Of a DNA stretch of 36,344 nucleotides, positions 2,546 to 36,344 are shown one piece after another. The position numbers were made by a program, and so were the translations under genes. The stretch spans positions 1-36,344 of IMG/VR virus record IMGVR_UViG_3300045950_000290; one strand, 5' to 3'. The notes under the pieces are model-generated. The model saw only the letters and a list, made by a program, of their open reading frames with translations. It ran no database searches and was not told the DNA's origin. The DNA comes from a virus. Each line of letters begins with the position of its first letter. The first letter of the stretch is position 1.

Positions 2546-2676
2546 CCGGGCGGCAAATCCTCGCGTGCGCGATCGCCGGAGCGCTGCTGGCCGCCGGATC
2601 GTTCGGCGTCGCCGCATGGGCGCTGACCGGGATCAACGCGCCCTTCTGCGTCGCGTGGCGGTGGCCGATATCATGA
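2542..2676 (+). CDS. Small single-pass membrane peptide (44 aa)
   Basis: ATG 2542 and stop TGA 2674-2676 both sit in ATGA overlaps with the neighbours, which is the main reason for accepting so short a gene. Residues about 6-29 (ILACAIAGALLAAGSFGVAAW) form a hydrophobic segment after a short basic start (MTGRQ). It may be a signal anchor or a cleaved signal peptide. No family recognised. Any function is unknown; it also couples translation to the ASCH-like gene. Confidence 0.5.
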   Translation: MTGRQILACAIAGALLAAGSFGVAAWALTGINAPFCVAWRWPIS

Positions 2677-3137
2677 AAAAAGACGGCACCGCGATCGAAT
2701 GGGTGACGGCGCTGGCCCGCGCGACCGGCAAGCGCGCGGACGTGTGGAATCCGCAGGAGGGCTGCTCGCGCGCCGGGCGGATCGCCGTGCACGCGGCCAA
2801 GGGCATGACGCGGGGCGAATACGAAGACGCCGCCGACTTCATGCGGACCCTCGGCGTCGAATGCCCGCGGCCGGACGCGCTGATCCGGGGCGGGATCATC
2901 GGCGCGGTGACGGTCGAAGCGATCGTCAAGGAACATCCGAGTCCGTGGTTTTTCGGGCCGCGCGGGCTGGTGCTTTCGGGGGCCGAGGCGGTCGCGCCGA
3001 TCGCGGCGCAAGGCGCGCTCGGGTTTTTCTATTGGGACGCGGGCGGCGGCCTGGAAAAACCGCTGCCCTGGATGATCGCGTGGCTGGGTCGCGCGGCGAA
3101 GCCGTTGCCGCTGTTCGCCGGAAGCGGGGCGGCATGA
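2673..3137 (+). CDS. ASCH-domain-like protein
   Basis: 154 residues from ATG 2673 (ATGA overlap). The order of blocks is that of phage ASCH (PUA-like) proteins. GRIAVHAAKGMTRGEYEDAADF matches the RGxxxIHAxKG strand and following helix. ALIRGGIIGAVTVEAIV is the central strand pair, usually ARGAIVGxxxLxDxV. SPWFFGPRGLVL is the very common SPWFxGPxGxVL segment, and QGALGFFYW the final GxLGFF strand. ASCH domains are thought to bind modified nucleosides or RNA. The usual N-terminal QPWA...E/N-x-R-x-W block is degenerate (EWVTALARATG...WNPQEG), so the putative ligand pocket is altered. Confidence 0.68.
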   Translation: MKKDGTAIEWVTALARATGKRADVWNPQEGCSRAGRIAVHAAKGMTRGEYEDAADFMRTLGVECPRPDALIRGGIIGAVTVEAIVKEHPSPWFFGPRGLVLSGAEAVAPIAAQGALGFFYWDAGGGLEKPLPWMIAWLGRAAKPLPLFAGSGAA

Positions 3138-4609
3138 CCGCGGCCGGCACGATCAAAAGCCCCGACGAACTGCTGCGCCTGGTTTCGGCGCGGGCCGAGG
3201 CGGGCGAGCCGCTGACGGTGCGAAAACTGATGGCGTTTCCCGCGCCGCTGGTGGCGCGATTGTTCGACGAGGCCTTGATCGAGCGGAAGGAAACGCGGCT
3301 CGGCGTCGTGGTGGTGCCGAGCGCCGCGGCAAAATACCAGCCGGAAGCCGGCCAGCGCGCCGCGCCGCGGCCCGACGCCGCGCCGGCGGGCGCCTGGAGC
3401 CACGAGCAGCTCGAATATTTCCGCCGCGCCTATCCCGCCGGCGCGCCCTATCGCGAAATGATCCACGTGCTCGGCAAGACGGCCGACGACGTGCTGCGGG
3501 CGGCGTGGACCATGAAGCTCGATCGGCCGCGCCTCGGACGGCCGTGGCGATCGAGGCGCGCGCGCAACGCGCACGGCGGGGTCTTCGAAGTCGTCGCGCC
3601 GGCCTGGCGCATCCGCCGGTTCAGGCTGATGCTCGAGGAAGCCTGGGCGCGCGGCGGCAATCCGCGCGACGGCGGCGAGGGCCTGGATCATCGCGCCCTG
3701 CGGTCGGCGTTCGCGCGCGGGCGGAGCGCGGCCCAGGCCGCTGGCGCGTTCAAAAAATCGGGGCGCTACTTGCCGGACGAAGCGGCGGGCCTTCGGGAGT
3801 TGTTCAAACGGGGCCGTTCGCCCAAGCAGATCGCCGCGACGCTCGGGCGGGAATTGACCGGCGTTTATAAAAAACTGCGGGAACTCGGGCTCTATCTGCC
3901 GGACGACCGCTGGTCGTCGGACGAGGACGCGCGGCTGATTTCGGGCCTGCAGACGGGCCTGACGGCGAAGGAAATGACGCACTTCCTGCCCGGGCGGTCG
4001 CGGCAGGCGATCAAGAACCGCGGCTACGCCCTCTGGCCCGGCCGGGGCGCGGACATGTGGACCGAGGCGGAAAGCGCGCGGCTGGCCGAGGCCTACGCCA
4101 AGGGCGAGAACATCAAAAAGGTGGCGCTCGAGCTCGGCCGCGGCGTCTGTGGGTGCCGCTGGCGCGCGCGCTACCTGGGTCTGGTGCACCCCAACGCGGT
4201 GCGCGAATACACGCCCGCCGAGGATCGGATCATCCGCGCGGGGTTCAAGGCCGGGCGGCGGGTTTCGGAGATCGCCGACGAACTGGGGCGGGAAACGGCC
4301 GGAATCTACAACCGCGCCTTCAAGCTGGGCGTCAAGCATCGCAACATGCGGCCGTGGACGGACGCCGACCTAGCCCGGCTTAAGCACCTGGCCGAAAGCG
4401 GCGTGCCCGGGCCGGTCGCGGCGGCCGCGCTCGATCGCGAGGTCCACGCGGTCTACAAGTGCGCCGCCAAGCGCGGGTTCCATTTCCGGGCGAAGAAGAA
4501 CGGGCGGCGGAAACCGAAGCCCGTCGATCCGCGCTACGGCCAGCGGCGGCGCGGCGCCGAGGGCGACGGCGGCTGGCGCGCCCGGGCATCGGAAGGGGTG
4601 GCGGCGTGA
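3134..4609 (+). CDS. Tandem Myb/GcrA-like repeat DNA-binding protein
   Basis: 491 residues from ATG 3134 (ATGA overlap). At least six copies of a module of about 45 residues repeat roughly every 50 residues: 87-132, 212-256, 259-301, 308-352, 358-402 and 407-451. A more degenerate seventh lies at about 157-207. The shared pattern is W-[ST]-x2-E-x-A-R-L at the start, a middle G-x-[ST]-x2-[EQ]-[IM], then L-G-R, and Y-x2-[AL]-x2-L-G-[LV] at the end. This is the trihelical pattern of Myb/SANT-like HTH domains and closely resembles the N-terminal domain of GcrA. Residues 1-80 are a separate domain and 452-491 a basic tail. Multiple DNA contacts along a long site, or bridging, are inferred. No catalytic motif is seen. 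Confidence 0.75.
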   Translation: MTAAGTIKSPDELLRLVSARAEAGEPLTVRKLMAFPAPLVARLFDEALIERKETRLGVVVVPSAAAKYQPEAGQRAAPRPDAAPAGAWSHEQLEYFRRAYPAGAPYREMIHVLGKTADDVLRAAWTMKLDRPRLGRPWRSRRARNAHGGVFEVVAPAWRIRRFRLMLEEAWARGGNPRDGGEGLDHRALRSAFARGRSAAQAAGAFKKSGRYLPDEAAGLRELFKRGRSPKQIAATLGRELTGVYKKLRELGLYLPDDRWSSDEDARLISGLQTGLTAKEMTHFLPGRSRQAIKNRGYALWPGRGADMWTEAESARLAEAYAKGENIKKVALELGRGVCGCRWRARYLGLVHPNAVREYTPAEDRIIRAGFKAGRRVSEIADELGRETAGIYNRAFKLGVKHRNMRPWTDADLARLKHLAESGVPGPVAAAALDREVHAVYKCAAKRGFHFRAKKNGRRKPKPVDPRYGQRRRGAEGDGGWRARASEGVAA

Positions 4610-5184
4610 CGGCCGTGCTTCGATTCCCGGTGCGCCGGGCGAAGGAATTTCGCGGCGGCGCGCCGTGGGAGGCGTGCGAGGACCAGCACCTGGCGCGTCT
4701 CCGGCGCGCGGGGCTGACGTGCGGCCAGCTCGCCGCCGCGGTCCGGATCGTGGCCGAGGATTGGGGGCGCGCCGTGCCCGAGGTGTGCCGGCGGTTCGAT
4801 TTCCTGCTCGGCGCGGGCGCCGTGCGCGAAGGGCGGATGACCGTCACCGAGCGGGCGCTCTACGCGCTTGCGGGGCGCGCGGGGGAAAGCGCGGAAGCGC
4901 CGGGCGGCTTCGTCCTCGACGGGCGGATGGCGGAATGGCGCGACGTGGCGTGGCGCGAGGTCGGATCGGGTGAACCAGATGCGCGGGATTCTCTTTTCCG
5001 GGTACTGGAGCATGAACTAGACCTTGCCGAGCGCCGGGCTTGGGTTTCGCTCGCGCGCAACAAGTTCCAGATGTTCGGTTTTTGGGCGGCGATCTGGGTT
5101 CATCTCAACCGCGTCGGGGGATTGGGGAGGCCGAATCCGTTTGCCTCGGCGGTCGGACTGGCGCGCGAAAGGACCAAACCATGA
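4606..5184 (+). CDS. Hypothetical protein with one Myb/GcrA-like N-terminal module
   Basis: 192 residues, GTG start overlapping the upstream stop. Residues about 20-66 (WEACEDQHLARLRRAG, then LTCGQLAAAVRIV and VPEVCRRFDFLL) look like a single divergent copy of the helical module repeated in the preceding protein, so the pair may act together. The middle (70-140) has no recognised motif. The C-terminal 50 residues (ARNKFQMFGFWAAIWVHLN, then PNPFASAV) form an aromatic block that looks conserved and could be an interaction surface. No catalytic residues identified. Confidence 0.6.
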   Translation: MTAVLRFPVRRAKEFRGGAPWEACEDQHLARLRRAGLTCGQLAAAVRIVAEDWGRAVPEVCRRFDFLLGAGAVREGRMTVTERALYALAGRAGESAEAPGGFVLDGRMAEWRDVAWREVGSGEPDARDSLFRVLEHELDLAERRAWVSLARNKFQMFGFWAAIWVHLNRVGGLGRPNPFASAVGLARERTKP

Positions 5185-5467: not shown

Positions 5468-5664
5468 AATTCTCAAGAATCTTAGCGCTGCCGTTTGCGG
5501 CGGCGGCGGATATTCTCACGCTCGGCAACCTTGGCGGCCAGTCGTACACGTCGCAGATTTTCAATAACCAACGTCGTGATGACCAACATCGTCGCGACAT
5601 TGAAACCCTGAAAGCCGCTGCTCCGATCATCGCGGAGATTTTGAAATCCGAGCAGCCAAAATGA
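5464..5664 (+). CDS. Hypothetical small phage protein (66 aa)
   Basis: GTG start at 5464 (GTGA overlap). The N-terminus KFSRILALPFAAAADILTLGN is hydrophobic and may associate with membrane. It is followed by a strongly charged helix with QRRDDQHRRDIE and a C-terminal ETLKAAAPIIAEILKS helix. Base composition of 5460-5660 is a little less GC-rich than its surroundings. I recognise the general type from prophage early regions but know no function. Confidence 0.55.
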   Translation: MKFSRILALPFAAAADILTLGNLGGQSYTSQIFNNQRRDDQHRRDIETLKAAAPIIAEILKSEQPK

Positions 5665-5829
5665 CCGCAACCCCGACCAAGGAATACGAGCGCCGCGCCG
5701 ACGAGGCCGTTTGGCGAGCTTGCCACGCCGTTCGGCGGCGAGGACGCGCTCCGCCCGGCCAAGCGGGCGGGCGGGGCGGAATATCCGGACGGCGAGCGGC
5801 GTTGCGACACCTTAGGGCTTTATCCATGA
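5661..5829 (+). pseudogene. Small phage gene apparently split by a +1 frameshift
   Basis: The ATG at 5661 forms an ATGA junction with the preceding gene and reads MTATPTKEYERRADEAV, a natural-looking charged helix. From about 5711 the natural sequence continues in the +1 frame: FGELATPFGGEDALRPAKRA, then EYPDGERRCDTLGLYP, stopping at 5827-5829 exactly in an ATGA junction with the primase-like gene. The +1 frame alone has no ATG, GTG or TTG start, while the original frame runs into low-quality Arg/Gly-rich sequence and would fuse to the primase. A single-base indel or programmed frameshift around 5708-5714 (GCCGTTTGGC) would give one 55-residue protein with both junctions intact. Function unknown. 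Confidence 0.55.
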
Positions 5830-6884
5830 GCGGAAGCGTCATCGACATCAAGGACGTGGTCGACGGCCTGGCCGCGCGCATCGAGCCGCTGTGCCGCGAG
5901 CTGTTCCCGGCCGGGGTCAAGGAAGGGCACGAATTCCGCGTCGGTTCGCTGGCCGGCGAGAAGGGCCGGAGCATGGCCGTCAACCTCGGCGCCCGCGCGG
6001 GCGTGTGGAGCGATTTCGCCGCCGGCCGATCGGGCGACGCGCTCGACCTGGTGGCGGGCGCGTTGTTCGGCGGCGACAAGAAGAAGGCGTTTCAATGGGC
6101 CAAGCGGTGGCTCGGGCTGGAGGATTCTTCGATCGGGGCCTCGGCGGCGCGCCCCGACTTCGCCGAAATCGAGCGGCGCCGGAAGGTCGCCGAGGCGGCC
6201 AAGGCCCGCCAGGCGCGCGAGGACGAGAACAAGCGCGACCTGATCCGGCGCCTCTGGGATTCGTGCCGGCCGGAGATATCGGCGACGCCCGTCGACGATT
6301 ACCTGATGGGCCGCGGCATCGACCTCCGCGCGCTGGGAAGGCCACCGAGAGCGCTCCGGTTTCATCCGGCCTTGAAGGAGCCGGAGCAGGGGCGGCGGTT
6401 CCCGGCCATGGTCGCGGCGGTCGCCGGGCCGGACGGAACGCTGGCGGCCGTGCACCGGACGTTCTTGATGGGTCGGCCGGGGTCCGTGACCAAGGCGCCG
6501 ATGAACGATCCGAAAATGTCGCTCGGCCGGTTGGCCGGCGGATGCATTCCGATTTGGCGCGGGAATTCGGGCGAGCCGTTGCGCCGGGCCCACCCGGGCG
6601 AGGCCGTGGTGCTGACCGAGGGGATCGAGGACGCGCTGACGGTGGCGCTGGCGTGCCCGGGGCGGCGAGTGTTGTGCGCGGTCAGCCTCGCCAACATGGC
6701 GCGCGTCTGGCTGCCCGCCGCGATCAAGACGGTGGTGATCCACGCCCACAACGAGGACGGGCCGGAAGCGGAAGCGGCGCTGCTGAAGGCGGTCCGGTTC
6801 CACGCGGCGCAAGGGCGCGAGGTGCGGATCGCCCGCGCGCCCGGCGGCGCGAAGGATTTCAACGACGTGGTGAAAACCGCATGA
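5826..6884 (+). CDS. TOPRIM-domain primase-like protein
   Basis: 352 residues from ATG 5826, chosen over 5661 because the sequence between reads better in another frame. Residues 59-98 (GVWSDFAAGRSGDALDLV, then FQWAKRWLGL) are the N-terminal block of phage/plasmid primases of the CHC2-derived type lacking zinc cysteines. A charged linker at 110-145 precedes the central domain (150-225). The TOPRIM part is 260-352: AVVLTEGIEDALTVA holds the catalytic Glu (E265), and KDFNDVV is a typical ending. At 303-313 the usual D-x-D of VVIAxDxDxxG is replaced by VVIHAHNEDG, so metal binding may be weakened. It probably makes primers for the helicase-like neighbour. Confidence 0.75.
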   Translation: MSGSVIDIKDVVDGLAARIEPLCRELFPAGVKEGHEFRVGSLAGEKGRSMAVNLGARAGVWSDFAAGRSGDALDLVAGALFGGDKKKAFQWAKRWLGLEDSSIGASAARPDFAEIERRRKVAEAAKARQAREDENKRDLIRRLWDSCRPEISATPVDDYLMGRGIDLRALGRPPRALRFHPALKEPEQGRRFPAMVAAVAGPDGTLAAVHRTFLMGRPGSVTKAPMNDPKMSLGRLAGGCIPIWRGNSGEPLRRAHPGEAVVLTEGIEDALTVALACPGRRVLCAVSLANMARVWLPAAIKTVVIHAHNEDGPEAEAALLKAVRFHAAQGREVRIARAPGGAKDFNDVVKTA

Positions 6885-7060
6885 ACGCCCAAACTTGCGG
6901 GACCTGCCGATGGTTCGAACCCCGGCCGCGCCAGACCGCCGAGAACGATCTTGGCGAATGCCGGCGCCGCGCGCCGACATCCTCGAACGGCTGGCCTAAA
7001 ACGTGGCCCGCGGATTGGTGCGGCGATTGGCAGGGCGCGCCGACGGGGCGGATAAAATGA
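6881..7060 (+). CDS. Small zinc-ribbon-like Cys-rich phage protein (59 aa)
   Basis: ATG at 6881 (ATGA overlap); the stop also overlaps the next start. Cysteines are arranged as CGTCRWF, GECRR and WCGDW: C-x2-C near the N-terminus, one Cys in the middle, and one in a W-C-G-x-W block near the C-terminus. This small four-Cys pattern occurs repeatedly next to phage replication genes and probably binds zinc. It sits between primase-like and helicase-like genes, so a helper role in replication is inferred. No direct evidence. Confidence 0.6.
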   Translation: MNAQTCGTCRWFEPRPRQTAENDLGECRRRAPTSSNGWPKTWPADWCGDWQGAPTGRIK

Positions 7061-8958
7061 GCGAGGAAAAAAACAAAAGCGCGGCGGTGGTGAACCTGCA
7101 GATCGTCCGCCAGGCGGTGGACGGGGCGGTCGCGGTCAATGATGGGCGCGCGGCCGCGTCTTTAAGTGAGCCGCCGGCGCGGACAAGGGAAGCCCGCGGG
7201 CGCGATATCGAGGATCAATCGACCGCGCCGCCGCCGCCGGGGAAGAAGTCGCGGCTGCCGGACGGGTGCCCGGTGATCCCGCTCGGCCAGCTCGCCGACA
7301 CTTTTTTCTATCTCGACGCCGCGCACCAACTGGCGGCGCTCAAGGGCGAGAAGCACGGCAAACTGAACATCGCGACGTTGTTCGGCCGGATGAACTACCT
7401 GCTCGCGCAGCCGGGTTATTGGCCGCGGTTCGGCCGCGACGGCAAGGTCAACGGCTTCGCCGCCGACCACGCCGCCCACGACCTGATGGCCGCCGCGGCG
7501 GCCGAGGGGTTGTGGAAGCCGCAGGACAAGGTGCGCGGCCCCGGCGCCTGGGCGGGAACCAAGGGCGAGCTGATCCTCCATTGCGGGGACGTGATCTTCA
7601 TCCAGTCCTGCGGAGCGCGCGGGGATTCGCCCGCGCGCCTCGAATCCCACAAGCCGGGGATGATCGGCGGCAAGGTCTATCCCGCCGCCGAGGCCGGGCC
7701 CAGGCCGGCGCTCGAGCGCCAGCCGCCGGGCGAGGCCGGGCCGGGCGAGGCGCTGCTGCGATTCCTCCGCACCTGGCCGTGGAAGCGGCCCGAGGTGCAT
7801 CCCAACCTGATGCTCGGCTGGATCGTGGCGGCGCTCGCCGGCGGCGCGCTTAAATGGCGGCCGGTGGTCTGGATCACCGGCGGGCCAGGGACCGGCAAAT
7901 CGACGCTGCAGGAGGTTTTGCGCCACGTCCTCAACGACTGGCTGGTGAGCGTATCGGACGCGAGCGCGGCGGGGATCTGGCAGAAGCTCGGCTACGCCAC
8001 GTTGCCGGTCGCGCTCGACGAGATCGAGGCCGACGCCGACAACCGCCGCGCCGACGCGGTGATCAAGCTGGCGCGCCAGGCGGCGAGCGGCGGGCTGGTC
8101 TTGCGCGGCGGGCAGAACCACGAAGGGACCGAATTCGTGGCGCGGTCGTGTTTCCTGTTTTCCTCGATCGTGATTCCGCCGCTGGAACCGCAGGATTTGT
8201 CGCGGATGGCGATTTTGGAACTGATGGCCCTGCCGCAGGGATCGATCGTGCAAATGAAACGCGATTGGCTGCGCGGCCTCGGCCCGGCGTTGATTCGCCG
8301 CTTGGTCGACCAATGGGGGCGGATGGCGGAAACCATGGAAATATATCGCGCCGCGCTGGCCGAGGTCGGCCACAACGCGCGTGGATGCGACCAGTTCGGG
8401 ACGCTGCTGGCGTGCGCCGACCTGGCGCTCTACGACGCGGCGCCGGACGGCGAGCAGGCGCGCGCCACGGCGGCGCGGCTGGACGCCAAGCGCCTGGACG
8501 AATGGGCGGAGCAGGTTTCGGACGAATTCGCCATGCTCAACAAGCTGGTGACGTTCGCGATCGAGCCGCACCGGGGGGGATCGCGGCGATCGGTCGGCGC
8601 CTGGATCGAGCAGGCGGCGGGCTTGGGCGGCAACGCGGCGGCGGCCGAGGACGCGGAGACGTTGCTCCGCACCCATGGGCTTTCGGTTCACGGGGACGAG
8701 GGCGGCGCGACGTGGCTCGCCATGGCGAACGCGCACAGCGAACTCGAGAAGATTTTCGCGGGGACCAAATGGGCGGGCCGCGCGGGCAAGACCGGCGGCT
8801 GGCGGCAATCCGCGCGGAGGTTGCCGGGCGCGGTCGCCAGCCGGCAACCGATCTATTTCGGCGGGCCGAACCTGCGCGCCACGCTGATCCCGATCGAAAT
8901 CGTGTTACCCGGCCGGAAGGTGGAACCCCCGTCGGCGGCGGCCTTAAAAAAACCCTAG
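7057..8958 (+). CDS. P-loop replicative helicase-like ATPase
   Basis: 633 residues from ATG 7057 (ATGA overlap). The Walker A motif is GGPGTGKS at 275-282 and the Walker B-like motif VALDEIE at 318-324. RGGQNHEG and SCFLFSSIVIPPLEPQDLSR (about 352-388) look like the sensor-1/arginine region of SF3/D5-type phage helicases. Residues 70-190 form a separate N-terminal domain (NYLLAQPGYWPRFGRDG and HDLMAAAAAEGLW), and the C-terminal 170 residues are probably DNA-binding. With the TOPRIM protein it would form the phage primase-helicase pair. It is the last gene before the origin-like gap, as expected for an initiator or helicase acting in cis. Exact helicase superfamily not settled by eye. Confidence 0.78.
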   Translation: MSEEKNKSAAVVNLQIVRQAVDGAVAVNDGRAAASLSEPPARTREARGRDIEDQSTAPPPPGKKSRLPDGCPVIPLGQLADTFFYLDAAHQLAALKGEKHGKLNIATLFGRMNYLLAQPGYWPRFGRDGKVNGFAADHAAHDLMAAAAAEGLWKPQDKVRGPGAWAGTKGELILHCGDVIFIQSCGARGDSPARLESHKPGMIGGKVYPAAEAGPRPALERQPPGEAGPGEALLRFLRTWPWKRPEVHPNLMLGWIVAALAGGALKWRPVVWITGGPGTGKSTLQEVLRHVLNDWLVSVSDASAAGIWQKLGYATLPVALDEIEADADNRRADAVIKLARQAASGGLVLRGGQNHEGTEFVARSCFLFSSIVIPPLEPQDLSRMAILELMALPQGSIVQMKRDWLRGLGPALIRRLVDQWGRMAETMEIYRAALAEVGHNARGCDQFGTLLACADLALYDAAPDGEQARATAARLDAKRLDEWAEQVSDEFAMLNKLVTFAIEPHRGGSRRSVGAWIEQAAGLGGNAAAAEDAETLLRTHGLSVHGDEGGATWLAMANAHSELEKIFAGTKWAGRAGKTGGWRQSARRLPGAVASRQPIYFGGPNLRATLIPIEIVLPGRKVEPPSAAALKKP

Positions 8959-8964
8959 GGCGAC

Positions 8965-9242
8965 CGAAAAATCGTGCGCTGATCGTGCGAAAAATCGTGC
9001 GTCTAATATTCACGGATTTTCAAATTGTTATGAGTGAAATTAACCATTTCGCACGATTTTTCGACCTCCGAGCACTCTCATATATGCGTGCGCGCGTGCG
9101 CGCACGCGCGCGTATGGGCCCCGCCGGGACCGTGCGAACCGTGCGAACCCCGACCCTTTTTAATTATATATATTATTTTTCAAATACTTATATCTCGCAC
9201 GATTTCTCGCACGATAAGCGCACGGTCACGCACGATTTTAAG
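8965..9242. other. Iteron-type candidate replication origin
   Basis: This gene-free gap (8959-9277) is AT-rich in a very GC-rich genome and packed with ATCGTGCG units. Left, direct orientation: 8971-8978, 8982-8989, 8994-9001. Right, inverted: 9196-9203, 9208-9215, 9219-9226 (variant CGCACGGT), 9229-9236. Starts are 10-12 bp apart, one helical turn. A further inverted copy lies at 9050-9057. The longer unit CGAAAAATCGTGCG is exact at 8965-8978 and 8988-9001 and inverted at 9050-9063. A variant CGTGCGAAC is tandem at 9131-9148. An A/T tract (9158-9195) beside the right array could be the unwinding element. Position after the helicase gene supports an origin; a late-promoter control region is the alternative and may coexist. 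Confidence 0.65.
9079..9116. repeat. Z-DNA-prone alternating tract with 22-bp perfect palindrome
   Basis: From 9079 to 9116 pyrimidine and purine alternate without interruption for 38 bp. The inner 22 bp (9090-9111), GCGCGCGTGCGCGCACGCGCGC, form a perfect palindrome centred between 9100 and 9101. Such tracts readily adopt Z-DNA or cruciform structure under negative supercoiling. The palindrome lies almost exactly midway between the left and right iteron arrays (midpoint about 9103). It may help structure the candidate origin or act as a protein site. Confidence 0.7.
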
Positions 9243-9277: not shown

Positions 9278-9817
9278 ATGACGAAAAAAAAATCAACCGG
9301 CGTGAAGTCGGCCTTGAGGATTGCCATGGATTCCACGCCGCCGCCGCCGCCAGCCGCGCGGCAGCTCCCGCTGCTCGCGCCACCGGAGCCGGTCGAGGCC
9401 GCCGGGCCGAAGGAACCGCCGCGCGGGCCTGGCCGCCCGCCGGGATCGATCAACAGGCGGACGAAGGATTTCGCCGATTATTTACTGAAAAGGTACGCGG
9501 ACCCGCGCGAGGTTCTAGCCGTGATGTATTCGCGCACGCCCGCGCAGTTCGCGGCCGAAATCGGGATCAAGAAGCCGTCGGCCGAACAACTCATTGAAAT
9601 TATTAGACTTCAAAAGAGCTGCGCCGAAGCCGTCGCGCCATACGTCGCCTCGAAAATGCCGGTCGCGGTCGAGGTTAGCAGCAAGGGAATCGTCCAGCTG
9701 GTGATCGAGCGGGCGGGCGAAAAGGCCCAGCCGATGGGCGCCGCCGCCGACCGGATTATCGACGTGACGCCGATCGCCGCCGGCGCCGAAGAAAAACAAG
9801 GAAAATCAGATGATTAA
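9278..9817 (+). CDS. Putative terminase small subunit
   Basis: 179 residues from ATG 9278, which follows AAGGTG at 9269-9274 at good spacing; the in-frame GTG at 9272 lies inside that Shine-Dalgarno sequence and is not preferred. The N-terminus is basic and proline-rich with a GPGRPPGSINRRT segment of AT-hook/HTH-linker type. Then come helices FADYLLKRYADPREVLAVMY and a long helix with IIRLQKSCAEAVAPYVASKMPVAVEV. This layout and its place just before the large terminase match small terminase subunits of T7-like prophages, which recognise phage DNA for packaging. Identification rests largely on context. Confidence 0.6.
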   Translation: MTKKKSTGVKSALRIAMDSTPPPPPAARQLPLLAPPEPVEAAGPKEPPRGPGRPPGSINRRTKDFADYLLKRYADPREVLAVMYSRTPAQFAAEIGIKKPSAEQLIEIIRLQKSCAEAVAPYVASKMPVAVEVSSKGIVQLVIERAGEKAQPMGAAADRIIDVTPIAAGAEEKQGKSDD

Positions 9818-14344: not shown

Positions 14345-15618
14345 ACCCCGCCCTGCCGATCTTCGCCTTTCTGCTGACCGTGCTCTATTGGCCGGGCGTC
14401 GCGGAATCCGCCGACACGCCGCGCTGGGCGATGATTTCGGCCGTGGCGCCGTTCCTGCTGCTGAACCGCGCGCCCCGGCTGACGCCGTGGGTCGCGCCGC
14501 TGCTCGGCGTCTTTCTCGCCTGGGCGTGGGCGTCGCTCCTGTGGACGCCGGCCTTGTGGGACGGGCTCGACCGCTGCTGGCGCTGGACGCTGGCCGCCGC
14601 GATGGTCCTGCTCGGCGCGACGCTGACGGACAAGGAATGGCGCTGGACGCTGATCGCGTTTTCGGCGGGCGTCGCGCTCAACGGCGCGCTCGCCCTCGGC
14701 CAGTATCTCCAATGGCAACCGGCGCTCGGACTGGTCGAACAGGTTTCACCGCCGGCGGGAACCTTCCTCAACAAGAACCGCCTCGCCGAGGCCGCCGCGC
14801 TGGCGCTGGCGGGACTGTTGGGAATGGGGTTGCGCGCCCGGGTGGTTTTTCCGCTGTTGGTTCCCGCCGCGTTGACGTTGGTCCTCGCGGGCTCGCGCAT
14901 CGCCGCGATCGCGGCGGCGGGCGCGGCGCTGATTTTTCTCTGGCCGAGGGCGCGAGTGCTCGCGATCGGATTGGGCTTGGCCTTGTTCGCGAACTTCGTC
15001 TTTTCGTTCCAGCCCGACACCTCGGTCGCCGCCCGGCTTTCCCTGTGGCGCGACACGCTCGCCAATCTCGCGCCGCTCGGGCGGGGCGCGGGATCGTGGG
15101 TCGCGCTCTACCCCTCGTTCACGACGGTCGGCTCGACCGCCGCCTATCGCTTCGGCACCTTGCCGGAACATCCGCACAACGAGGCGGTTTATCTGCTGTT
15201 CGAGCTTGGGCCGGCGGCGCTGGCGTTGCCCGCGCTGTTCGTTCTCGCCTGGCGGCGAGGGGCGGCCGATGACGACTGCCGTTTCGTTCTCGCCGCGTTC
15301 GGCCTCATCGCGCTCGCCGCTTTCCCTCTCGCGCTGCCGGCGTCGGTCGGACTTGCGGCGCTCGCTCTCGGCCGCGCTCTGCGCCGCCGGGATACTCTAC
15401 GCGGTTTCCCTGATGCGCGGCGAAGCGACCTACAAAGCGGCCCTCGATACCGCGAGTATTTCCGGGATCCTCTTAGGGACGATCGAGGCTTCGGCGGTTT
15501 TTCCGGCCTCGGCCCGTTTGCGCGAGGCGCGCGCCAATCTCGCCGCGCAAATGGCCCAGGTCGATCCGATTCTGGCGCTCGCGTTCCTCAAGAGCGCGCA
15601 GCGGGAGGCACCCCATGA
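14341..15618 (+). CDS. O-antigen ligase/polymerase-like membrane protein (probably frameshifted near its end)
   Basis: ATG 14341 overlaps the portal stop (ATGA). The frame stays open for 425 residues, but only the first 350 or so (to about 15390) look natural. They contain about 11 hydrophobic segments and one large loop before the last ones, with GRGAGSWVALYPSF, YRFGTLPEHPHNEAVYLLFELG and, earlier, AGSRIA. This is the signature of Wzy_C-type O-antigen ligases/polymerases (WaaL/Wzy), which join polysaccharide units in the inner membrane. After about 15390 this frame becomes Arg/Gly-rich, while the + 1 frame continues sensibly as a hydrophobic segment and TPR-like domain (see next entry). Position inside head genes marks it as a moron-type cargo gene for surface modification. 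Confidence 0.75.
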   Translation: MNPALPIFAFLLTVLYWPGVAESADTPRWAMISAVAPFLLLNRAPRLTPWVAPLLGVFLAWAWASLLWTPALWDGLDRCWRWTLAAAMVLLGATLTDKEWRWTLIAFSAGVALNGALALGQYLQWQPALGLVEQVSPPAGTFLNKNRLAEAAALALAGLLGMGLRARVVFPLLVPAALTLVLAGSRIAAIAAAGAALIFLWPRARVLAIGLGLALFANFVFSFQPDTSVAARLSLWRDTLANLAPLGRGAGSWVALYPSFTTVGSTAAYRFGTLPEHPHNEAVYLLFELGPAALALPALFVLAWRRGAADDDCRFVLAAFGLIALAAFPLALPASVGLAALALGRALRRRDTLRGFPDARRSDLQSGPRYREYFRDPLRDDRGFGGFSGLGPFARGARQSRRANGPGRSDSGARVPQERAAGGTP

Positions 15619-35084: not shown

Positions 35085-35168
35085 AAACCGTCAGACTTTT
35101 AACGGATTTCCGGCATAAAACGGCGTTTTTTCGTTGGACCGCGCGCTGAAAAATAATAAATCCTGGCG

Positions 35169-35215
35169 GACTTTTAATCAGAGGGTCGCTGGTTCGATCC
35201 CAGCCGGGCTCACCA
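35169..35215 (+). other. attR: 3' part of a tRNA-Lys(UUU) gene
   Basis: The sequence begins GACTTTTAATCAGAGG. It contains anticodon loop CTTTTAA (35171-35177, anticodon TTT), the 3' anticodon stem strand, variable loop, a full T-arm GCTGG-TTCGATC-CCAGC (35188-35204), 3' acceptor strand CGGGCTC and ACCA ending at 35215, then six T. The bases 5' of 35169 (GGCG) do not pair as tRNA, so the 5' half is missing. A 3' fragment starting at the anticodon loop is the normal outcome of tyrosine-integrase insertion into a tRNA gene. The complete tRNA-Lys should be at the left end of the prophage. Not a functional tRNA by itself. Confidence 0.85.
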
Positions 35216-35315
35216 TTTTTTCGAGGGGTTGGCGATAGTCATAACTTGCTACCACGGGCTACCAACCTCTAGCAACTCACTCGGAAATCCTATCCGGGTA
35301 AGGGAGTAAACGTTG

Positions 35316-35615
35316 ATGGAATGGGCCTTTGGGAAAGCTCTTTATATAACTCTGGTAACAGCCGCCTTCATAGCATTATGGCTTGGGCTTGCTTGGCTTG
35401 ACGACAGGGGGTGGACAGATCGTATTGGCAATTTCTTCTGGGGAACGGTTTGTTTAATAGCCGCATTGTTCTCATTTCGGGAGATGATAGAAACTATTGA
35501 CTTCGACAAGCCGCTTTTCTTGTCCATATATTGGAGCACCCTCGGGTATTTTTTGCTTGCTGTCGTATTGGCTATAATGGGAATAGGGAGTTTTATTTCA
35601 CTGAAAAACCGATAA
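35316..35615 (+). CDS. Hypothetical membrane protein in AT-rich DNA (99 aa)
   Basis: ATG 35316 preceded by AAGGGAG (35300-35306). Three hydrophobic segments: about 8-28 (ALYITLVTAAFIALWLGLAW), 37-53 (GNFFWGTVCLIAALFSF) and 69-93 (LSIYWSTLGYFLLAVVLAIMG), separated by charged loops. Base composition is far less GC-rich than the rest of the window, and codon use is relaxed, indicating recent acquisition. It lies just outside attR, so it may be left from an earlier element using the same tRNA. No family recognised. Confidence 0.6.
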   Translation: MEWAFGKALYITLVTAAFIALWLGLAWLDDRGWTDRIGNFFWGTVCLIAALFSFREMIETIDFDKPLFLSIYWSTLGYFLLAVVLAIMGIGSFISLKNR

Positions 35616-35668
35616 TTATTTTCAAATATCTATGCCATATAGCAAAACCGGAACTTGGATGGCACTTT

Positions 35669-35860
35669 TTAAGTGAGGCAAATAACGTTTAGAGCCAACA
35701 CGTGAACGACAAGCACGTCGCGGCGCAGACCATAGATCACGCACCAATCCCCGACCCGAAGCCTGTAGCCGGGGCGTCCCTTGAGCGCCTTGACGTTGTT
35801 GTTCGGCGCGAAGGGGTCGATGGCCAAGCGCTCGATCTTGGTCCGGATGGTTCGGGCCGG
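35669..35860 (-). pseudogene. Truncated RelE/ParE-type toxin remnant
   Basis: Read on the - strand this stretch gives RTIRTKIERLAIDPFAPNN, then VKALKGRPGYRLRVGDWCVIYGLRR and DVLVVHVLAL, closely following RelE/ParE toxins (K-I-x-x-L-A-x-D-P, N-V-K-x-L-x-G, G-Y-R-L-R-V-G-D-[YW]-R-V-I-Y). The N-terminal helix is absent: the frame is closed upstream by a TGA at 35861-35863 and has no ATG or GTG. The C-terminal end differs from the usual R-x-x-Y-K, the usual Arg of GDWRVIY is Cys, and the frame stops at 35669. No antitoxin is visible on either side. It is host-side debris of a toxin-antitoxin pair. Confidence 0.72.
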
Positions 35861-35946
35861 TCAAGAAACGCCGCCCTTCCCGCGCCCGCCGGGCGGATTT
35901 GCAAACCCGCTCCTCGCCAGCTTGATTCCGGCCGGGCGCGCCAATA

Positions 35947-35976
35947 TTTACAGGGCACGCGGATTGTGGATATAAG
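35947..35976 (+). promoter_or_regulatory. Possible sigma-70-type promoter for the chemoreceptor-tip gene
   Basis: TTTACA (35947-35952) and TATAAG (35971-35976) are spaced by 18 bp and stand about 70 bp before the ATG at 36045, in a local AT-rich patch. An AAGGAT Shine-Dalgarno (36033-36038) precedes the start. Matches are fair rather than exact; other sigma factors are possible for a chemotaxis gene. Confidence 0.4.
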
Positions 35977-36044
35977 GCCGAGTCGTTTCGACCCGATCGC
36001 ATCGCCCCTCCGACGGGGTCGCGCGGGCGCAACAAGGATCACCG

Positions 36045-36344
36045 ATGAGCGTCGACAGCAAGCTTGCCGAAGTCCGCGCCGAGATCGAATCGCTCCAGGG
36101 CGAAATCGAAAAGGTCGGCCGGGTGGCGCAGGAAATCGACGCCATCGCCAAGCAGACCAATCTTCTGGCCCTCAACGCCACCATCGAGGCGGCCCGGGCC
36201 GGCTCGGCCGGCAAGGGGTTCGCCGTGGTCGCCGGCGAGGTCAAGAACCTCTCCGCCCAGACCGCCCGCGCGACCAAGGAAGTGTCCGAGGTCGTCGGCA
36301 CCCTGATGAACCGGGTCGACAGGCTGGCGATGCTCATCGACTGA
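36045..36344 (+). CDS. Stand-alone chemoreceptor signalling-tip protein (99 aa)
   Basis: ATG 36045 behind AAGGAT; the stop TGA is the last codon of the window. Residues 25-75 contain [20 protein letters not shown] and [19 protein letters not shown], the highly conserved hairpin tip of methyl-accepting chemotaxis proteins that contacts CheA and CheW. No membrane segment, sensor or HAMP domain is present. Only short coiled-coil arms flank the tip ([19 protein letters not shown] and [19 protein letters not shown]). Upstream sequence does not encode a longer receptor in this frame, so it appears to be a complete small gene. It might compete with or scaffold receptor arrays; being a fragment of a lost receptor is the alternative. 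Confidence 0.75.

Follow-up and report, generated by a model that had tools for sequence, protein, structure and literature searches.

The open reading frame at positions 3134-4609 of an IMG/VR virus record of 36,344 bp, here called the window, encodes a genuine tandem array of six Myb-like three-helix modules that are separated by short linkers. On balance the array protein is probably a D5-like DNA-binding phage regulator, which would be laid along consecutive major grooves. The reading frame is real, with an ATG at 3134 and a product of 491 aa. Its fold and family are already known, while the length of the array and the mosaic behavior of its modules are less known.

Table 1. Features of the array protein, its gene block and the downstream repeat cluster (positions are those of the window).
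Feature	Residues	Position	Strand	Remarks
Array protein	1-491	3134..4609	+	491 aa with a net charge of +39; six Myb-like three-helix modules in tandem
N-terminal region	1-86	3134..3391	+	helices 10-23 and 37-45 plus linker; low-confidence model
Module 1	87-132	3392..3529	+	weakest module by sequence; modeled with three helices
Half-module remnant	186-203	3689..3742	+	first helix and turn only; inside low-confidence region 133-211
Module 2	212-256	3767..3901	+	supported by HMM, model and leave-one-out
Module 3	259-301	3908..4036	+	supported by HMM, model and leave-one-out
Module 4	308-352	4055..4189	+	within the seven-module plasmid family, best match to position 5
Module 5	358-402	4205..4339	+	plasmid-family matches at positions 3 and 6
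Module 6	407-451	4352..4486	+	clearly of the type found C-terminally (position 7) in the plasmid family
C-terminal tail	452-491	4487..4606	+	net charge +9, predicted disordered
Upstream gene		2565..3137	+	phrog_3193, of unknown function; its stop overlaps the start of the array gene by 4 bp
Downstream gene		4606..5184	+	4-bp overlap with the array gene; no family match
Toprim primase		5661..6884	+	in the gene block of the array
Replicative primase/helicase-like ATPase		7003..8958	+	in the gene block of the array
Iteron-like cluster		8965..9242	.	7 TCGTGCG and 3 CCGTGCG, AT-rich; candidate origin or operator

To identify the modules independently of the array protein, an HMM was trained on five plasmid/phage-scaffold proteins from other organisms, with the array protein left out. 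This HMM scored the array protein at 152.9 bits, far above the 10.4 bits of the best of 1000 shuffles, and placed modules at residues 213-253, 259-296, 309-354, 357-404 and 406-452. The copies at 259-296 and 87-132 were weak, with only 9.1 and 3.3 bits, respectively. A second HMM was made from the protein's own copies in a leave-one-out scheme, with 1000 shuffles as a control. Here modules 2 to 6 each scored above all 1000 shuffles; module 1 was weaker and was matched by 3 of the 1000. In the AlphaFold2 model, which used a 15-sequence alignment, three helices each were observed at residues 90-126, 214-250, 262-300, 311-347, 361-398 and 410-446, with a local pLDDT of about 65-96 in the modules. 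The mean pLDDT of the whole protein was 66 and the pTM 0.29, values that suit a protein built like beads on a string; the single modules can be trusted, but not their mutual arrangement or their orientation on DNA.

The initial annotation, made from the sequence alone, had proposed six or seven tandem modules of a Myb/SANT- or GcrA-like type. Six of these seven copies were confirmed by the HMM, by the leave-one-out scores against shuffles and by the trihelical fold that the model of the whole protein shows in six places. The degenerate copy at residues 157-207 did not hold up as a folded module: the model contains helices of 16 and 23 residues at low confidence and not a three-helix module. 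Sequence likeness is confined to residues 186-203 (10.1 bits, best of 1000 shuffles 8.2), and only this 18-residue remnant is retained. A further module suspected in the gene at 4606 scored 1.0 bit, which was equalled by 51 of 1000 shuffles, and was rejected for that reason; the single-sequence structure model of its product, with a pLDDT of 46, is too low in confidence to inform.

Membership in the Myb family could be confirmed. The array protein scored 26.9 bits with Pfam Myb_DNA-binding (PF00249; cut-off 24.4), and in a phmmer search residues 255-387 aligned with the c-Myb R1R2R3-DNA structure 1h88 (E 9e-4). A profile made from the final three modules matched the Cbp1-type protein 2lvs (E 1.3e-9), the two solved modules of which align with modules 4-5 of the array. 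Foldseek searches of solved structures returned SNAPc, Reb1, c-Myb and Cbp1, all at E > 0.001, and the matches to predicted viral structures included a Vibrio phage D5 protein and phage GcrA. The array shares the tandem three-helix fold with the eukaryotic multi-Myb proteins c-Myb, SNAPc and Reb1, which are DNA-bound in solved structures, but sequence similarity is weak, and repeat number and spacing differ. Consecutive modules on DNA have an experimentally backed precedent in Cbp1 and c-Myb. With Cbp1, the CRISPR repeat-binding protein of the Sulfolobales, the array has in common that tandem HTH modules arose by domain duplication. However, Cbp1 has three modules, which align in order along the CRISPR repeat (PMC10883916), whereas the array has no CRISPR context and scored only 13.8 bits with the Cbp1 equivalog model NF040595 (cut-off 140).

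The GcrA part of the proposal did not stand. One array module resembles the N-terminal DNA-binding domain of GcrA, but the protein scored 20.0 bits with PF07750 (cut-off 26.9), only positions 9-49 of the 155 profile positions, its N-terminal third, were matched, and the C-terminal sigma70-interacting part is absent; GcrA also carries one copy of the module and the array six. A search of the whole record with the GcrA profile gave zero matches. Judged from its sequence, the array protein is thus not a GcrA, as the sigma-binding half is missing. Depletion of GANTC in the window (59 sites, 170 expected) was considered as a sign of GcrA/CcrM and discarded because patterns of the same composition are equally rare (GTNAC 54, CANTG 28). 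On another contig, the protein encoded at L017:7980-8831 combines a GcrA domain of full length (E 2e-18) with two array-type modules and could be a link from arrays to GcrA.

Among the closest characterised relatives is T5 D5, which is annotated as a DNA-binding protein required for replication as well as late transcription and is encoded between the ligase and helicase genes. The text of PMC7472727 mentions neither gpD5 nor late transcription. The top phage family for the array protein was phrog_323 (PHROG 323, D5-like transcriptional regulators; E 3.8e-37), which T5 D5 itself matches at 1.2e-71. This match alone proves little, because phrog_323 is not specific and had hits in 11 of 14 control genomes as well. 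Moreover, it is not a whole-length match: the best stretch of the array covers profile positions 92-199 of 319, against 3-270 for T5 D5. Better evidence for a kinship with D5 is the profile-profile comparison, in which the array family was aligned with five D5 proteins by hhalign and scored 95.9% (E 5e-9) over 173 columns and D5 residues 33-228, thus across several tandem modules, while 30 column-shuffled versions reached at most 1.0%. Plain BLAST did not connect the two proteins. Both have tandem three-helix HTH modules and are encoded in the replication region. D5, however, has 255 aa and fewer modules, and in T5 and its relatives its gene lies between DNA ligase B (ligB) and the DnaB-type replicative helicase gene, unlike that of the array. 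Going by these profiles, the array protein appears to be a distant relative of T5 D5, and an unannotated phage protein can now be tied to a regulator that is mechanistically poorly understood.

The initial annotation had taken multi-copy forms to be unusual, which was not borne out, since such arrays, with 2-7 modules, proved to be common in phages and plasmids; the six-module protein is thus of a known kind but unusually long. An uncharacterised seven-module version of about 410 aa was found in sphingomonad plasmids and genomes. It shares about 28% identity with the array protein and has the same modules, the same type of C-terminal module and a basic tail, but it has seven full modules, and in most of the plasmid and genome loci examined its gene is directly preceded by a gene for a HerA-like (DUF87) ATPase, which is absent from the window. 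This operon of HerA-like ATPase and seven-module array was observed at L001, L002, L004-L007, L009, L010, L012, L013 and L032-L049. An N-6 methylase-like gene is next at some of these loci, a GHKL-type ATPase gene is sometimes next or fused at the sphingomonad array loci, and the best PADLOC match of the sphingomonad HerA-like ATPase is mad8 (3e-17). The HerA-like neighborhood is shared by four seven-module IMG/VR records (L009, L010, L012, L013), which may be plasmids, and other IMG/VR contigs encode two or three modules. Single-protein queries of IMG/VR with the array protein and with the portal yielded no close relatives.

Global alignment suggested a one-to-one orthology with the seven-module family, but this was contradicted by position-specific HMMs. 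Only modules 4 and 6 kept their expected positions (5 and 7), whereas module 5 preferred position 3 and module 2 position 1. Because some modules match mixed positions of the plasmid family, the array looks like a mosaic relative of this family and not a strict orthologue. D5-, GcrA- and Cbp1-like proteins draw on one module, which phages, plasmids and archaea use in arrays with 2-7 copies.

The window belongs to a phage with a podovirus-type head-tail connector, a terminase and a major head protein, the portal and major head protein of which resemble those of Pelagibacter podoviruses. The array gene lies in a rightward, tightly packed block that leads from a DNA methyltransferase gene (642) via the array to the Toprim primase (5661) and the primase/helicase-like ATPase (7003). 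The methyltransferase (642-1319; phrog_799) carries an NPPF motif. The window's gene annotation contains no DNA ligase gene beside the array, and no phage RNA polymerase was identified among the window ORFs scanned or annotated.

The array protein would be made together with primase and helicase and would most likely bind phage DNA and thereby control transcription and/or replication of the phage, in the manner of D5 in T5. Successive modules are expected to sit in successive major-groove segments, as in T5 D5 and archaeal Cbp1, so that one molecule would cover a few turns of double-stranded DNA, with an estimated footprint of 20-45 bp. The analysis establishes the six modules, their predicted fold, the homology and the gene neighborhood, whereas the DNA binding, the footprint, the sequence preference and the regulatory effect of the array are inferred. 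That no phage RNA polymerase gene was seen among the annotated genes, the basic charge of the protein and the block shared with primase and helicase count for a D5-like regulator; against it count the gene's position away from a ligase, the unspecific phrog_323 and the weak first module. The initial suggestion of a protein that reads a long DNA segment or acts as a transcription switch is well supported by the homology to c-Myb, Cbp1 and T5 D5.

Alternatively, the array protein could be a sequence-nonspecific, cooperative coat on phage or host DNA that, like a nucleoid protein, shuts off or protects the DNA. The net charge with the basic tail fits such a coat, as does the finding that, apart from the iterons described below, no repeated operator could be identified in the window, where a window-wide search returned only codon-composition repeats. 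T5 D5, the characterised relative and a retron trigger, is toxic when expressed alone in E. coli (PMC13405049), and this toxicity also points in this direction. However, the clearly different third helices of the modules, together with position-specific types that are in part common to the plasmid relatives, suggest specific contacts, and the relatives Cbp1 and c-Myb are sequence-specific. A coat is therefore considered rather unlikely.

That the array is an ordered reader, in which six non-identical modules would each read a few bp and their order would spell a long address, is held to be improbable. If it were true, the protein would be retargeted as phages and plasmids, with their 2-7 copies, gain, lose and exchange modules among each other, and the arrays would offer a natural series in which to study the build-up of long binding sites.

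The right end of the window bears on the lifestyle of the phage. By our own reading, half of a lysine tRNA (the 3' half, which runs from the anticodon loop through CCA) is located at 35160-35216, for which ARAGORN and Rfam reported nothing, as for the rest of the window. The last 300 bp encode a fragment of a host-type chemotaxis receptor (PF00015, E 6.6e-28), and the half tRNA-Lys followed by the chemotaxis gene (35160-36344) corresponds to a right attachment site and host DNA. Because of this arrangement the element looks integrated, and the phage is probably an integrated prophage. That the array serves a temperate phage in regulating lysogeny or in counter-defence, and is not a D5-like lytic regulator, would agree with this integration and with the HTH repressor-like genes before the primase in phages with the same helicase, but it is very doubtful, as the window yielded neither an integrase nor a CI-like repressor, the array sits within the replication block and not next to a divergent regulator, and PADLOC gave no match for it.

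Equally slight is the chance that the array protein is a replication initiator that binds iterons and loads primase and helicase at the origin. Seven of the eight TCGTGCG copies in the window were identified within 264 bp of AT-rich intergenic DNA (8972-9235) directly after the helicase gene, a clustering that was never reproduced in 100,000 trials of random placement. Many copies are 9-12 bp apart and several 11-12 bp, and the array gene belongs to the same block. However, two phage scaffolds that share primase and helicase with the window have different iterons downstream of the helicase. L028 carries CGGTTCT x6 (9299-9556), and its 38-kb record shows no array over its entire length; L029 carries CGTTACC x8 (14768-15025) and only a two-module protein. 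Since both have iterons of their own without a long array, the iterons follow the helicase and not the array, which weakens them as an array target; more likely, and more simply, they are an origin that belongs to the replication enzymes. Within the window, the cumulative GC skew peaks at this cluster. Iteron-like clusters were also observed on two contigs that carry module proteins, with AGTTACC x10 at L026:14330-14616 and AGGTTCA x7 at L017:2213-2470.
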